Below, in pieces: positions 4,705 through 41,165 of a stretch of DNA of 64,000 bases. Made by a program: the position numbers and the translations under genes. Every line of letters begins with the position of its first letter. Positions within the stretch are counted from its first letter, which is position 1. The notes under the pieces are model-generated. The model had not been told where the DNA came from. It worked only from the letters and a program-made list of their open reading frames with translations, and ran no database searches. Location of the stretch: contig QOQE01000007.1 in NCBI GenBank assembly GCA_003331935.1, forward strand, positions 1-64,000, written 5' to 3'. This DNA is from Alphaproteobacteria bacterium (GTDB taxonomy: Bacteria; Pseudomonadota; Alphaproteobacteria; Rhodobacterales; Rhodobacteraceae).

Positions 4705-5832
4705 TCATTGAATTAAAGGGAGATCTTTGATTAAGCCTTCTCGAAATTCCTGATCATTGATATTAACTAATATTTTTTTGTTATTGTCCCAGTATCCCTC
4801 ATTGATCATGCCAAGCCCAATATTATTCTTGAAGAAAGGGGAAAACGCGCCCGATGTTAAATTGCCAACTATCGTTTTTTTATCTGTATCAAAAACTTGT
4901 AACGGTCTAGTTATTGTTGGAAGTCGGGGACCTTTATAAATTACGCCTTTTATACGTCTTTTAATGCCATACTTAATCTGTCTGAGGAGAACTTTTTTTC
5001 CGATATAATCTTCTTCTTTATATATATCCAAAAATTTGTCCATGTTACATTCCAGCGGTGTGTTCTCCACTGTCATTTCATTCCCATAGGATAATAAGCC
5101 TGCCTCAACTCTATCTATTATGTTTGGAGACCCTGGTCTTATATTTTCAGGTTTACCTGCCTCTAGAATTGTTTCCCATAGAAATGTACCTAGCTCTGGT
5201 CGAGACAAATAGATTTCAAATCCACCAATTCTAGAGTAACCAGTTTTAGCAATTAGTTGAGACGAACCATCAAGCGGAAAATAATCAAAATTAAACTTTT
5301 TAAGTGAATGTATACGTTCACCAAAAACCTTAGCCAAAACATCAGCAGCTTTTGGTCCTTGTATTGCCAGAGGCCAGACGTCAGGTTCTCTAATTCTAAC
5401 GTTCAATCCAAGACCAATAGCTAATCCTCTTGCCCATAATAATACATCTGAGTCCGCAACAGATAGATAGAAATGTTCGTCGCTTATTTTGATTAGAATA
5501 GGGTCGTTGATTATACCACCATTCTCATCAGTTAAAGGAATGTAGAGACATTTTTTTGAATTTAGCTCTGAGATCGATCTTGGTGTCATTAGCTCAATAA
5601 GTTTGAGAGCGTCTCTGCCCTTAATTTCAACTTGTCTTTGACAGCCAACATCCCAAATCTGAGCATATTTTTGTAGATGCAGATAATCATCTTCAATAGA
5701 GTGTTGAAAGGACTTTGGAAGGAGAGTATGGTTCACAACTGAAAAACCAGTCACTCCATATTTTTCAACAGACGCAGTAAAAGGCGTTCTTCTGATCCTT
5801 CTAGAAAAATTAAGCTTATTTTGAATATTCAT
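4705..5832 (-). CDS. DmdA/GcvT-family tetrahydrofolate-dependent demethylase (paralogue 1)
   Basis: About 375 residues with the aminomethyltransferase fold (GCV_T plus C-terminal barrel). It resembles DMSP demethylase DmdA along its length: SRRIRRTPF at the N-terminus, VNHTLLPKSF, VEIKGRDALKLIELMTPR, ADSDVLLWARG, IQGPKAADVL and SYGNEM. The motif that reads RSGWSKQGG in SAR11 DmdA, as I recall it, is KTGYSRIGG here, so the Trp is Tyr. Context (carnitine-to-betaine genes) suggests that betaine or dimethylglycine may be the methyl donor rather than DMSP; this is inference. I prefer the ATG at 5832: AGGAGA sits 6 bases before it, across the end of the upstream gene. Confidence 0.72.
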   Translation of the reverse strand: MNIQNKLNFSRRIRRTPFTASVEKYGVTGFSVVNHTLLPKSFQHSIEDDYLHLQKYAQIWDVGCQRQVEIKGRDALKLIELMTPRSISELNSKKCLYIPLTDENGGIINDPILIKISDEHFYLSVADSDVLLWARGLAIGLGLNVRIREPDVWPLAIQGPKAADVLAKVFGERIHSLKKFNFDYFPLDGSSQLIAKTGYSRIGGFEIYLSRPELGTFLWETILEAGKPENIRPGSPNIIDRVEAGLLSYGNEMTVENTPLECNMDKFLDIYKEEDYIGKKVLLRQIKYGIKRRIKGVIYKGPRLPTITRPLQVFDTDKKTIVGNLTSGAFSPFFKNNIGLGMINEGYWDNNKKILVNINDQEFREGLIKDLPLIQ

Positions 5833-33443: not shown

Positions 33444-33529
33444 GCCCAAGTGGCGGAATGGTAGACGCAGCGGATTCAAAATCCGCCGGTAGTAATATCG
33501 TGAGAGTTCGAGTCTCTCCTTGGGCACCA
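33444..33529 (+). tRNA. tRNA-Leu (CAA)
   Basis: The acceptor stem pairs GCCCAAG with CTTGGGC and is followed by an encoded ACCA end. The anticodon stem GCGGA/TCCGC closes the loop TTCAAAA, giving anticodon CAA (Leu). The variable arm is long, as in class II tRNAs, and the T-arm holds GTTCGAGTC. It decodes UUG. The DNA to the right, up to about 37 kb, has the features of an inserted islet, and tRNA genes are common integration targets. Confidence 0.97.
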
Positions 33530-33921
33530 TAATAATTTAATATTAGCTTTATTTGCTTTGATTTAATCAAACTTAGTCAAGGAGGGTAGACCAAATGGTA
33601 GACAAAAATGGTGCTTCTTTTTTTTATAGCTAATTTCTCCCAAATGTAAGATACATTTTACACGATTTCTCCTCATATTTACCATTACGTTTTTTTTAGA
33701 CGCACCTGTTGCCCTTCGTATCTCTTTATGACTTGCGAATACACTATTAATTCTTAAAGACACGTCCACGAGCTGTTTCAAAGAACACTAACGTTTCGAG
33801 TGGCGGTAGAGATTTGCGACGATTTTCACTCCTGTTAGTGATGGCTAAGACTGAGTATTTTCAACATTTACTTGCAAAGCATGCTAACTTAATTTTGCGA
33901 CTCGACAAAAGAGGTATTCAA
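33530..33921. other. Gene-free stretch between tRNA-Leu and the dddP-like gene
   Basis: Nearly 400 bases of AT-rich DNA with short open frames on both strands that resemble nothing I know. It contains repeat copy R1 at 33581-33628, from GGAGGGTAGACC through GGTGCTTC and a T tract. Base composition changes sharply to GC-rich at about 33930, inside the next gene. It may hold the scar of a lost integrase, but no recombinase motif is visible. Confidence 0.5.
33581..33628 (+). repeat. Imperfect repeat R1 (left boundary of the dddP segment)
   Basis: It runs from GGAGGGTAGACCAAAT through GGTGCTTC to a T tract and TATA. It aligns over its whole length with bases 35473-35520 (R2: GGGTAGACAAAA, GACCAAAA, GGTGCCTCTTTT, TATA), with roughly three quarters of positions equal by eye. 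R1 and R2 bracket the GC-rich dddP-like gene in direct orientation, as attachment-site scars would. Confidence 0.5.
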
Positions 33922-35178
33922 ATGGCTAATTTTGACTGGCACGCTGAGCGCAGTGATCTGGCAGGTGTTGTACTTCTTGATCGAGCCCCAGAAAGCGAAG
34001 GCATTGATCTTAGCGCTGTGCGCCTCTATCGGCTCGGCCGCGTCCGCGAACAGATGAAACTTTTCGGCGTTGATGCAGTTGTCCTCTCGGATCCGATAAA
34101 CATCCGCTATGCGACCGGTGCGCGAAATATGCAGGTCTTTTGCCAGCGGAATGCTCCGTCACGCTATCTGCTACTGACTGCACATAAATCTATCTTGTTT
34201 GAATTTACCGGCTGTCTGCACCTGGGTCATGGTTTTGAAACAATTGACGAGGTTCGGCCCTCGAAAACCGCCAGCTTCGTAGCCGCCGGGCCCGAAATCG
34301 TGGTACGGGAAAAAGCCTGGGCAACTGAGATGGCAGGCCTGATCGACGAGCTGGTCGGCAAAGGGGCGACGGTGGGCCTAGAACGGTTGAATGCGGGAAC
34401 GGCAATTGCGCTCAAAGACTGCGACTTGCAGATTGTCGATGCTCAGCAACCAGTTGAGATGGCGCGGTCTGTTAAGTCCAGCGAAGAAATGAAATGCGTG
34501 AATGCCTCTTTGCGCGCAACAGAGCGTGGTGTCGCCAAACTACGCGACGCAATTCGTCCAGGCATGACTGAGAACGAGCTATGGTCTGTCCTACATCAAT
34601 CCGTGATTGCGCAGAATGCAGATTACTGCGAGACGCGTTTGCTCAATGCGGGCGCGCGGTCAAACCCTTGGTTTCAGGAAACATCCAGCAACGTCATCGG
34701 TGAAAATGAATTGATAGCGCTAGATACCGATGTAGTGGGGTGTCACGGCTACTACTCTGATTTTTCCCGCACATTCCACGCAGGCCCCGGCAAACCGTCA
34801 GCGACACAGCGTGAGCTTTATAAGGTCGCCTACGAACAAGTTATTAGCAACATGGGCATCCTTCATGCTGGAATGAGCTTTCGTGATTACGCGGATAGGG
34901 CTTGGGACATTCCGGCAAAGTACTACGAAAACCGCTACTATCTGTCGGCCCATGGCTGTGGCATGACAGGAGAATACCCCTATCTTTACCACAAAGGTGA
35001 TTTCCCGGACGCAGGCTATGACGGCGAAATTTTTGCTGGTATGACCATTTGCGTCGAAAGCTATATTGGTGAAGCGGGTGGGCATGAAGGCGTCAAGTTA
35101 GAGCAACAAGTTCTCGTTACGGAAACAGGTATCGAGGTACTGTCCCGCTTTCCGTTCGAACAAGACTTGTTGTGCTGA
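33922..35178 (+). CDS. dddP: M24-family DMSP lyase DddP-like protein, horizontally acquired
   Basis: A 418-residue protein of the M24 metallopeptidase fold. It matches DddP motifs: DPINIRYATGARNMQ, CETRLLNAGARSNPWFQE and ALDTDVVG. All six metal-site residues can be placed: Asp268, Asp270, Asp280, His344, Glu379 and Glu394. DddP cleaves DMSP to dimethyl sulfide and acrylate. The frame extends upstream to 33814, but ATG 33922 with GAGG 8 bases before it fits better. The gene is markedly richer in G+C, with different codon choice, than all its neighbours, a sign of transfer. A prolidase-like or other M24 function is the alternative. Confidence 0.68.
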   Translation: MANFDWHAERSDLAGVVLLDRAPESEGIDLSAVRLYRLGRVREQMKLFGVDAVVLSDPINIRYATGARNMQVFCQRNAPSRYLLLTAHKSILFEFTGCLHLGHGFETIDEVRPSKTASFVAAGPEIVVREKAWATEMAGLIDELVGKGATVGLERLNAGTAIALKDCDLQIVDAQQPVEMARSVKSSEEMKCVNASLRATERGVAKLRDAIRPGMTENELWSVLHQSVIAQNADYCETRLLNAGARSNPWFQETSSNVIGENELIALDTDVVGCHGYYSDFSRTFHAGPGKPSATQRELYKVAYEQVISNMGILHAGMSFRDYADRAWDIPAKYYENRYYLSAHGCGMTGEYPYLYHKGDFPDAGYDGEIFAGMTICVESYIGEAGGHEGVKLEQQVLVTETGIEVLSRFPFEQDLLC

Positions 35179-35405
35179 CATTATTTATTTTTAATGCTAT
35201 ATTTTCTGTTGTAGGTTTTTTTGCTTCAGCACAATCCGATAAAAAATGGTCAACTAAGCAATGTTCCGATTTATGGAAAGCGATTGGGTTTTTCACGGCT
35301 CTTGCCGATAAACAGTGGAAAAAAAAGAATTAGGAAAAGGGAGCGCCATATGCCTCAATTGCAGCAGACTATTCTACTGTACATCAAACTGTCTGTGACA
35401 AGTAA
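35172..35405 (+). pseudogene. Small secreted protein gene interrupted by an in-frame amber codon
   Basis: A GTG at 35172 overlaps the dddP stop (GTGCTGA) and opens a frame with a textbook signal peptide: about 20 residues ending FFASAQ, cleavage after ASA. The mature part begins SDKKWSTKQCSDLWKAIGFF and hits TAG at 35331-35333 after 53 codons. The same frame continues with EKGAPYASIAADYSTVHQ and a Cys near the end to TAA at 35403. The in-frame, protein-like tail with a second Cys suggests one original gene of about 76 codons, with a Gln codon mutated to TAG. I do not know the family. Confidence 0.5.
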
Positions 35406-35413
35406 GTGAAAGG

Positions 35414-35526
35414 CCCCATCTGCTATACACTATAAGAATATACTACGTGAGTACCCCCTATTTTCCATCCGTGGGCGGGTAGACAAAACGAGGGACCAAA
35501 ACGGTGCCTCTTTTCAGTATAAAAAA
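35414..35526 (+). repeat. Imperfect repeat R2 (between the dddP and dmdA-like segments)
   Basis: It has two parts. The left half (35414-35488, beginning CCCCATCTGCTATACACT) aligns with R3 at 36824. The right half (35473-35520, GGGTAGACAAAA then GGTGCCTC) aligns with R1 at 33581. R2 therefore behaves like a hybrid junction that shares one side with each other copy. It lies in the 160 bases between the broken secreted-protein gene and the dmdA-like gene. Confidence 0.55.
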
Positions 35527-35565: not shown

Positions 35566-36705
35566 TCAAGACTTTGTTAACTTTTTGTCAGGATCATAAA
35601 AAGGTTTTTTAGTTGTTTGGGCGTCTCGCAATTGTCCTTGTATTTCTACTTTAAATGTTCTTCCAATATCGTCATATTTAGTTTCAACCATAGCTAGTGC
35701 TAAATTTTTTTCTAATCTTGGGGAATATACCGCAGATGTAACCTTACCTATTTTTTTTTCATCTATTGAAACAGGCCAAAATTTAGTATTAGGCCTCAGA
35801 AGAGGCTCACCATCAATTATCAGCCCGACTTGCTTTCGGGTAACTCCACTTTGCTTTATATGTTCTAAAGCAGTTTTTCCGATAAAGTTATATGGACCAT
35901 TTAAATCAACTAGCCTATCCAAGCCTAATTCAAATGGATTTGTATTTATGTCCATATCAGCATGATAAGAAAGCATGCCACCTTCTATTCTTCTTATAGT
36001 AGACGTATGACCTGGTTTTAATCCAAAACAATTGCCTGCAGACATAATCATTTCCCAGAGCTCATTGCCACGAGAATTATCTTGTAAATAAATCTCATAG
36101 CCTAACTCACTCGACCAGCCTGTCCGAGAAATAATTAATTCAATTCCTTGTAAATTAACTTTTCTCAACCAGTAATATTTTAGGTCTCGGATGTCCTCTC
36201 CTATTAGTTTTGCAAGAATGTCCTGTGAACGTGGTCCTTGAAGTTGGAGGGGTGAAACATCAGGCTCACAGATTTTAACATTAAAATTTGTATTAACAGC
36301 TACGCCCTGTGCCCATAAAAGAACATCGCTATCCGCAAGTGAAATCCAATACTTATTCTCTTCTAGGCGTAATAAAATAGGGTCATTTATTATGCCACCA
36401 TCTGAGTTTGTAATAAGAATATACTTGCATTGTCCAACTGCCATATTGCTCAAGTTACGAGGCGTCAAGAGTTGTATAAACTTAGAAGCATCTTTACCTG
36501 TTATTTGAACCTGACGCTCTACTGCCACATCACATAAAACCGCTGTTTCAATTAAGTTCCAAAAATTCTTCTCTGGCGATCCAAAGTCACGAGGTATATA
36601 CATATGGTTATAAACAGAGAAATCTTTTGCTCCCCATTTGATGGTAGATTCAAAAAATGGTGACTTTCTAATTTGTGTTCCAAAGCCAAAATCATCGGGG
36701 CTCAT
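35566..36705 (-). CDS. DmdA/GcvT-family demethylase (paralogue 2)
   Basis: About 379 residues, aminomethyltransferase fold. It aligns along its length with the copy at 4.7-5.8 kb and with DMSP demethylase: VYNHMYIPRDF, RQVQITGKDASKFIQLLTPR, ADSDVLLWAQG, LQGPRSQDIL and ISRTGWSSELGYEIY (the Trp missing in paralogue 1 is present here). It would move a methyl group from a methylated substrate to tetrahydrofolate. Next to a DddP-like gene, DMSP is a natural guess, unproven. ATG 36705 is preferred over TTG 36717 because GGAGA lies 5 bases before it. Repeats R2 and R3 flank the gene. Confidence 0.7.
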   Translation of the reverse strand: MSPDDFGFGTQIRKSPFFESTIKWGAKDFSVYNHMYIPRDFGSPEKNFWNLIETAVLCDVAVERQVQITGKDASKFIQLLTPRNLSNMAVGQCKYILITNSDGGIINDPILLRLEENKYWISLADSDVLLWAQGVAVNTNFNVKICEPDVSPLQLQGPRSQDILAKLIGEDIRDLKYYWLRKVNLQGIELIISRTGWSSELGYEIYLQDNSRGNELWEMIMSAGNCFGLKPGHTSTIRRIEGGMLSYHADMDINTNPFELGLDRLVDLNGPYNFIGKTALEHIKQSGVTRKQVGLIIDGEPLLRPNTKFWPVSIDEKKIGKVTSAVYSPRLEKNLALAMVETKYDDIGRTFKVEIQGQLRDAQTTKKPFYDPDKKLTKS

Positions 36706-36823
36706 TAAATTCTCCAAAGGTTGGTAAAGAGCAAACTAAAGATACTTAGAACATATAAGCGATTAGAATAAAAATGATAAGCAATATGTATATTCAAGAA
36801 ATTAATTTATTACCCTCCAAGCA

Positions 36824-40148: not shown

Positions 40149-40256
40149 TTCTCTAACTTTTTTCTGGGATGATCCTATAACTAGAGATTTATCAAGAGTG
40201 ATGAGCTGTTATAGATATCTCTCAAAAAAACTTATTGAAAGCTTTTGGCTAAATCT

Positions 40257-41165
40257 ATGGATATAGATATTTGTTCCATAGCATTTATAGGTTTAGGAGA
40301 AGCAGCATCTGCAATTATCTCCGGGTGGGGAGATCTTAGAAACAAACAAGTACAAGCATTCGATATTAAATTACAAGAAAGCGATACGAAAGAAGAAATA
40401 ATTTCGAGAGCAAGCAAACTAAATATAGGTTTGAAATCTTCACTAAAGGATCTTGTTAGAGATGCTGACTTGATCTTTTCCACCGTTACGGCCGATCAAG
40501 CTTTAACCGTTGCAAGAGAGGCCTCTTCATTTATGAGAGATAAGGCTTACTTTTTTGATCTAAATTCAAGTGCACCCTCTTCGAAACAAAGGGCATGCAA
40601 AAGTATTGAGACTAATGGAGGGTGTTACGTGGACGTTGCAGTGATGGCACCTGTCGCTGCCAAAAAAAACCTTGTTCCCCTTTTTATCTCTGGGGGCAAG
40701 GCAGCTAGCGCCTTGGCCGCATTAGAAAAACTCCCAATGAATGCAAGAGTTATTGATGGACCTGTCGGCCGGGCATCTTCTGTAAAGATGGTTCGTTCAA
40801 TAATGGTAAAGGGGTTAGAAGCTCTTACTGCAGAGTGTGCCATTGCGGCTATTGAGGCTGATGTTTTAGATGAGGTATTTGCGTCTTTATCAGAAGGCCA
40901 TCCCTACTTCAATATATCAACTCATGCTATGTACAACTTAGAAAGAAGCCTTTCTCATGGAAAACGTCGTGCAGAAGAACTCAGGGAGGTATCAAAAATG
41001 CTTGATGACCTTGGGCTTATAAATCATATGTCAAAGGCCGCTGCTAATTGGCAGAAAAAACTAGGGTCATTAGAAAAGTCAACTTCTATATCAGATATAA
41101 AAAGTGAATTTCACTCTTTTGCTAAACAGGTATCAGCTGATCTGAGAGAAATGAAAGAGAAATAA
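40257..41165 (+). CDS. NAD(P)-dependent 6-phosphogluconate/3-hydroxyisobutyrate dehydrogenase-like protein (DUF1932)
   Basis: About 302 residues. A Rossmann domain opens with FIGLGEAASAI. FDLNSSAPSSKQRA and CYVDVAVMAPVAAKKNLVPLFISGG follow, then a helical DUF1932-type C-terminal domain. It probably oxidises a hydroxy acid. It lies just upstream of the protocatechuate operon on the same strand, so an aromatic side-chain or hydroxy-acid step is possible but unproven. The start could be ATG 40257 or TTG 40245; ribosome sites are weak for both. Confidence 0.7.
   Translation: MDIDICSIAFIGLGEAASAIISGWGDLRNKQVQAFDIKLQESDTKEEIISRASKLNIGLKSSLKDLVRDADLIFSTVTADQALTVAREASSFMRDKAYFFDLNSSAPSSKQRACKSIETNGGCYVDVAVMAPVAAKKNLVPLFISGGKAASALAALEKLPMNARVIDGPVGRASSVKMVRSIMVKGLEALTAECAIAAIEADVLDEVFASLSEGHPYFNISTHAMYNLERSLSHGKRRAEELREVSKMLDDLGLINHMSKAAANWQKKLGSLEKSTSISDIKSEFHSFAKQVSADLREMKEK

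Follow-up and report, generated by a model that had tools for sequence, protein, structure and literature searches.

A putative roseobacter fragment encoding a DddP-fold protein without Asp377 in a degraded tRNA-Leu island

In the window (the whole stretch of DNA analysed here, 64,000 nucleotides), a DddP-like gene lies within the remains of an island behind a tRNA-Leu gene. The explanation that we consider probable as a whole is that a roseobacter fragment was patched into this old island, and that the enzyme it encodes, which has the DddP fold but Gly at the position of Asp377, acts on another osmolyte. The window sits within a 77-kb contig (C26) of the small, low-GC genome of its host, a marine member of the Rhodobacteraceae (1.56 Mb; completeness about 90%), the assembly of which is fragmented into 28 contigs. 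The features of the locus are as follows:

33444–33529, plus strand: tRNA-Leu(CAA), conserved across the genus as the anchor of an island hotspot
33584–33621, plus strand: island repeat R1, GGGTAGACCAAATGGTAGACAAAAATGGTGC...
33618–33778, minus strand: decapitated native gene, remaining as the 3′ portion of a Recombinase/HTH-like ORF (89 aa) known from the genus
33772–33778, unstranded: left junction, microhomology AAACAGC, common to the donor lysR and the native gene
33772–33828, minus strand: remnant of the divergent donor lysR, spanning roughly its 20 initial codons but with no start codon (tblastn, 79–84% identity)
33829–33921, plus strand: imported intergenic/promoter region, within the stretch of roseobacter DNA homology
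33922–35178, plus strand: imported gene for a DddP-like M24-fold metalloenzyme of 418 aa (ORF call, homology, fold)
35175–35178, unstranded: right junction, microhomology CTGA, which doubles as the stop codon of the imported gene
35175–35457, plus strand: native small ORF for a secreted 79-aa product, deprived of its start and first codons and carrying a later in-frame stop
35477–35514, plus strand: native island repeat R2
35566–36717, minus strand: DmdA-like (GcvT-fold) island gene, outside the imported fragment
40245–41165, plus strand: first conserved gene beyond the island

Composition and origin of the imported gene

The original prediction held that the gene differs sharply from its neighbours in base and codon use, and this was confirmed. 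The GC content of the window climbs from 0.36–0.40 to 0.53 at the gene, whose GC1, GC2, and GC3 values are 0.617, 0.421, and 0.543. For the remaining 44 ORFs of the window, GC3 averages 0.320 (sd 0.029, maximum 0.369), so that the gene, at about 0.53–0.54, stands about 7 sd higher.

The best protein matches came from roseobacters and allied Alphaproteobacteria, at 89–92% amino acid identity. Among 21 same-genus genomes, no relative exceeded about 34% identity, which is the level of the resident gene, and at a strict threshold the gene was found in 6 of 395 family genomes, its own genome counted. In the phylogenetic tree (SH-aLRT support, no bootstrap), the window protein took its place amid sequences from roseobacters and Stappiaceae, within a set of eight rows (SH-aLRT 96). 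Its partners there include Roseovarius litoreus, Tropicibacter, and Roseibium/Labrenzia, so that the phylogeny places the donor in this circle but singles out no one member of it. As judged from phylogenetic conflict, absence in sister genomes, and foreign composition taken together, the gene is one gained by transfer, as had been predicted.

The dN of the imported gene against the donors was about 0.05, with dS saturated; hence, the protein has been kept under amino acid constraint. In a count made for amelioration, 19 of the 24 window-specific synonymous changes ran from GC to AT, an excess that was not significant against controls (p 0.18). A search for a carrier gave no match among viral contigs, and plasmid relatives at less than 60% identity only. 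A resident gene transfer agent was also considered as the carrier and found to be without support, the GTA_TIM domain being absent from the host genome.

Limits of the insert and its junctions

DNA homology to the roseobacter loci (L006, L009–L013) started at 33772 or 33777, ran to about 35172–35178, and did not continue on either side. From this alignment, the predicted foreign DNA is exactly 33772–35178, about 1.4 kb, and comprises the complete gene, its promoter, and the start of lysR. A LysR gene adjoins the relatives of the imported gene in 29 loci, and is divergent in the loci listed; no other relative of the lysR stub, and thus no cognate LysR, was found anywhere in the host genome.

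Both flanks are native. On the left, 33618–33778 shares 76–82% nucleotide identity with three same-genus loci (G005:C6, G008:C54, and G021:C8), its final 7 nt or so being common to the donor, and the 89-aa ORF is retained elsewhere in sister genomes. On the right, the small ORF at 35175–35457 shares 84–88% nucleotide identity with its relatives, and the same ORF lies within the same tRNA-Leu island in G006, G007, and G020. Since the flanks are native and AAACAGC and CTGA are shared with the donor, the junctions argue for a linear fragment patched in at microhomologies.

The sequence thus shows a linear roseobacter fragment of about 1.4 kb (truncated lysR, promoter, and whole gene) joined into an already degraded tRNA-Leu island by illegitimate recombination at the 7-nt and 4-nt microhomologies. 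Two native small genes lost their 5′ ends to the insert and were thereby destroyed. Uptake of the fragment may have occurred by natural transformation or transduction.

A DddP fold without Asp377

The closest solved structures to the imported protein were those of DddP, both by sequence and by fold (TM 0.89; pLDDT of the predicted model, 89.6). All six metal ligands (three Asp, two Glu, and one His: D295, D297, D307, H371, E406, and E421) are present, as are the invariant Tyr366 of DddP and the Trp-Phe motif NPWF. The Asp377 of DddP, however, is replaced by Gly (G350 in the protein's own numbering), and against the NCBIfam model of DddP (NF043017) the protein scored 269 bits, short of the cut-off of 600.

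This Gly is not peculiar to the window protein. In a tree of 96 proteins (without bootstraps), 69 fell on one side of a single branch with an SH-aLRT of 99, and all 69 carry Gly at position 377. The members of this G377 clade come from Proteobacteria (Alpha-, Beta-, and Gamma-), Bacillota, and one Latescibacteria MAG. We found no description of the clade in the open-access literature searched, which does not prove its absence elsewhere.

Tyr366 and Asp377 have been stated to be invariant in DddP lyases, with Asp377 favoured as the catalytic base (PMC4108388). The imported enzyme would therefore not be a DMSP lyase working through the DddP mechanism, and it probably does a different job from DddP.

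Neighbouring genes and possible function

At nine loci, all of the G377 clade, a gene for a choline-type ABC binding protein lies directly downstream on the same strand. These loci belong to Caballeronia, Paraburkholderia, Halomonadaceae, and Salibacterium. In the two Burkholderiales, Caballeronia and Paraburkholderia, a choline-dehydrogenase-type gene comes next after the binding protein (648 bits against a cut-off of 605 for the Caballeronia copy, which was the one scanned). In Halomonas organivorans, transporter genes of the BCCT type lie near the G377 member, together with a gene that distantly resembles those for glycine betaine monooxygenase. No ectoine genes were seen beside G377-clade genes. 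In the nearest roseobacters, the LysR gene is the only conserved neighbour, so that the hint of choline or betaine comes from distant members only.

The imported protein is thus predicted to be a dinuclear-metal enzyme of the DddP fold that would act on another small osmolyte. Going by the neighbours of distant members and the metal site, its substrate would most likely be a betaine/choline-type (onium) compound; the same two lines suggest a hydrolase or lyase of such a compound. For the clade at large, we put forward, as a tentative proposal that is possible and somewhat short of likely, that it is an undescribed enzyme performing a different catalysis on a betaine/choline-like osmolyte with the DddP scaffold, and that it spreads among marine bacteria in short fragments.

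The best-surviving alternative, in our view an unlikely one, is that the protein is a lyase of DMSP (or DMSOP) which uses Tyr366 in place of Asp377. Retention of the six metal ligands, Tyr366, and NPWF would fit such an enzyme, and Tyr366 has itself been considered as a possible base in DddP (PMC4108388). Against it stand the reported invariance of Asp377 in DddP lyases in the same study, the choline-type genes beside distant members, and the crystal structure of a complex of the RlDddP mutant D377N. The PDB also contains the RlDddP mutant Y366A.

Resident DMSP genes

The host genome already holds a canonical DddP (G000:C13) that retains Asp377 and scores 619.4 bits against the cut-off of 600. 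Two DmdA genes also exceed their cut-off, one in the window at 4735–5823 and the other at G000:C14. Besides these two, a third, DmdA-like copy was noticed at 35566–36717 on the minus strand. Its product scored 380.5 bits against NF009133 (cut-off 410), its best PDB match was the DmdA structure 3TFH, and none of the 21 same-genus genomes gave a match to it at E ≤ 1e-100.

The gain of DMSP cleavage that the transfer had been taken to indicate could not be upheld: with a canonical DddP in residence, the model cut-off failed, and Asp377 missing, the transfer does not show acquisition of this activity.

The tRNA-Leu island and its repeats

The gene at 33922–35178 does lie behind a tRNA gene, as noted originally, the tRNA-Leu(CAA) at 33444–33529. 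A certain HNH-type gene was found in 15 genomes of the genus, that of the window included; the tRNA-Leu stands beside it in 14 of them, and the sole miss is at a contig end. The sequence 3′ of the tRNA varies in nearly every same-genus genome. The search for an empty site in sister genomes, advised with the original prediction, was fruitful: the imported gene was absent, and in G008 and G021 the equivalent of the gene at 40245 directly follows the tRNA, giving an island-free site.

R1 and R2 are real, imperfect repeats, about 30 of 38 positions being identical when read off the sequence. Exact matches to their core, GTAGACMAAA, number only three in 64 kb, all inside R1 and R2; the two are missing as one pair from the repeat-finder list because their exact seeds are short. 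They do bracket the gene, but they enclose more than the foreign DNA (33772–35178 only), and they are not its ends, since they are native in relatives without the gene. An R2-type repeat follows the 79-aa small ORF in G007 and G020 also, both of which lack the imported gene, and the R1-type repeat of G018 forms the 5′ end of a gene for a tyrosine recombinase (DUF6538 domain), a gene that has become frameshifted.

In G007, the tRNA 3′ end is repeated, along with the flank downstream of it, 3.9 kb further on (83 bp). Such a direct repeat (attR), present in G007 and others, was not found in the window down to 46000, and no integrase gene was found between 33530 and 40240. By comparison across the genus, R1, R2, and the tRNA are best assigned to an integration hotspot that is older than the insert, is shared across the genus, and has degraded; they are not the ends of the insert. 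The tRNA may accordingly be kept as an integration target for the island as a whole; for the DddP-like gene this part of the claim falls, the junctions lying inside R1–R2.

Several further observations were made on these islands. DUF6538 tyrosine-recombinase genes behind the tRNA-Leu in L114 (G018) and L120 (G007) bear frameshifts at different positions, which suggests that the hotspot integrases decayed repeatedly. Degenerate, partial tRNA-Leu copies of 70 bp lie about 4.9–7.4 kb past the tRNA-Leu in L117 and L118, and are probably old attachment ends. The 79-aa secreted ORF (MTFLRLFILTALFSVVGSFASAQSDKKW...; window 35187–35330; L133–L143) was present in 11 of the 22 genomes of the genus, in three or more cases within tRNA-Leu islands, and had no Pfam match. 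An intergenic motif of 36–45 nt (window 35414–35458; L121, L123, L137, L138, and L140) recurs in the islands of several relatives. No stable RNA fold was predicted at the repeat region 35396–35475 (z 0.95).

Other explanations of the locus

The reading in which a functional DMSP lyase was gained by tRNA-targeted integration of an island, with R1 and R2 as the element ends, appears to us quite improbable. The tRNA, the repeats, and the compositional contrast on which it builds are all real, and DddP is indeed the nearest solved structure. Yet the repeats are native, as is the small ORF that separates the insert from R2, the true junctions fall between R1 and R2, and no copy of the tRNA 3′ end follows as far as 46000; nor does a protein without Asp377, in a genome with its own canonical DddP, speak for a gained cleavage activity.

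An ordinary M24 peptidase of the Xaa-Pro type is less credible still. The Pfam matches of the protein are Peptidase_M24 and Creatinase_N, as such an enzyme would have. By sequence (E 1e-60 to DddP vs 1e-14 to prolidases) as well as by fold (E 1e-42 vs 1e-23), however, it is far nearer to DddP, and its nearest relatives are not peptidases; the grouping with the DddP superfamily thus held. In addition, of the two positions that we take to be those of the M24 substrate-binding His residues (assigned in part after PMC5395565), the second is Gly and the first carries the Phe found in DddP.

Least probable of all is a chimera in which a piece of a roseobacter contig was misjoined to the host genome during assembly: the assembly is metagenome-like and fragmented, but both junctions are internal to the 77-kb contig, the 7 and 4 nt shared there are too short for k-mer joins, the GC3 of the gene (0.54) lies between those of the donors (0.62–0.65) and the host (0.32), and the decapitated small ORF bears a further nonsense mutation.

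Significance and comparison with known systems

We therefore return to the patched-in fragment with its G377 enzyme. At this locus, both junctions of a chromosomal fragment carrying a single gene can be read, which makes it a clean case of capture with no mobile element involved. The gene dddP is reported to make up about 65% of marine ddd genes (PMC10686828). A look-alike clade without the catalytic Asp would inflate DddP counts made by loose similarity. The G377 clade points to an osmolyte-degrading enzyme, and a clade so prone to misannotation is of more interest than an ordinary transfer.

Like DddP (RdDddP, 4B28; RlDddP, 4RZY; NF043017), the imported protein has whole-length homology, the fold, the six metal ligands, Tyr366, and, at the first M24 His position, Phe. 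Unlike 4B28 and 4RZY, to which it is only about 30% identical, it has Gly for Asp377, belongs to a separate clade, and has a shorter N-terminus. It shares the pita-bread M24 fold with creatinase and the ectoine hydrolase DoeA, which act on small nitrogen compounds; sequence similarity to these two is weak (E about 1e-3, PDB).

The island recalls the tRNA-linked additive flexible genomic islands (fGIs) of streamlined pelagic bacteria (fGI-2 of Methylophilaceae, and tycheposons; PMC10872708), which likewise hold hypervariable cargo behind a tRNA, and the sister genomes resemble these in their tRNA 3′-end repeats and tyrosine recombinases. Unlike them, the island of the window keeps neither an integrase nor a tRNA-end repeat, and unlike their cargo (PMC10872708), the imported gene arrived by another route.
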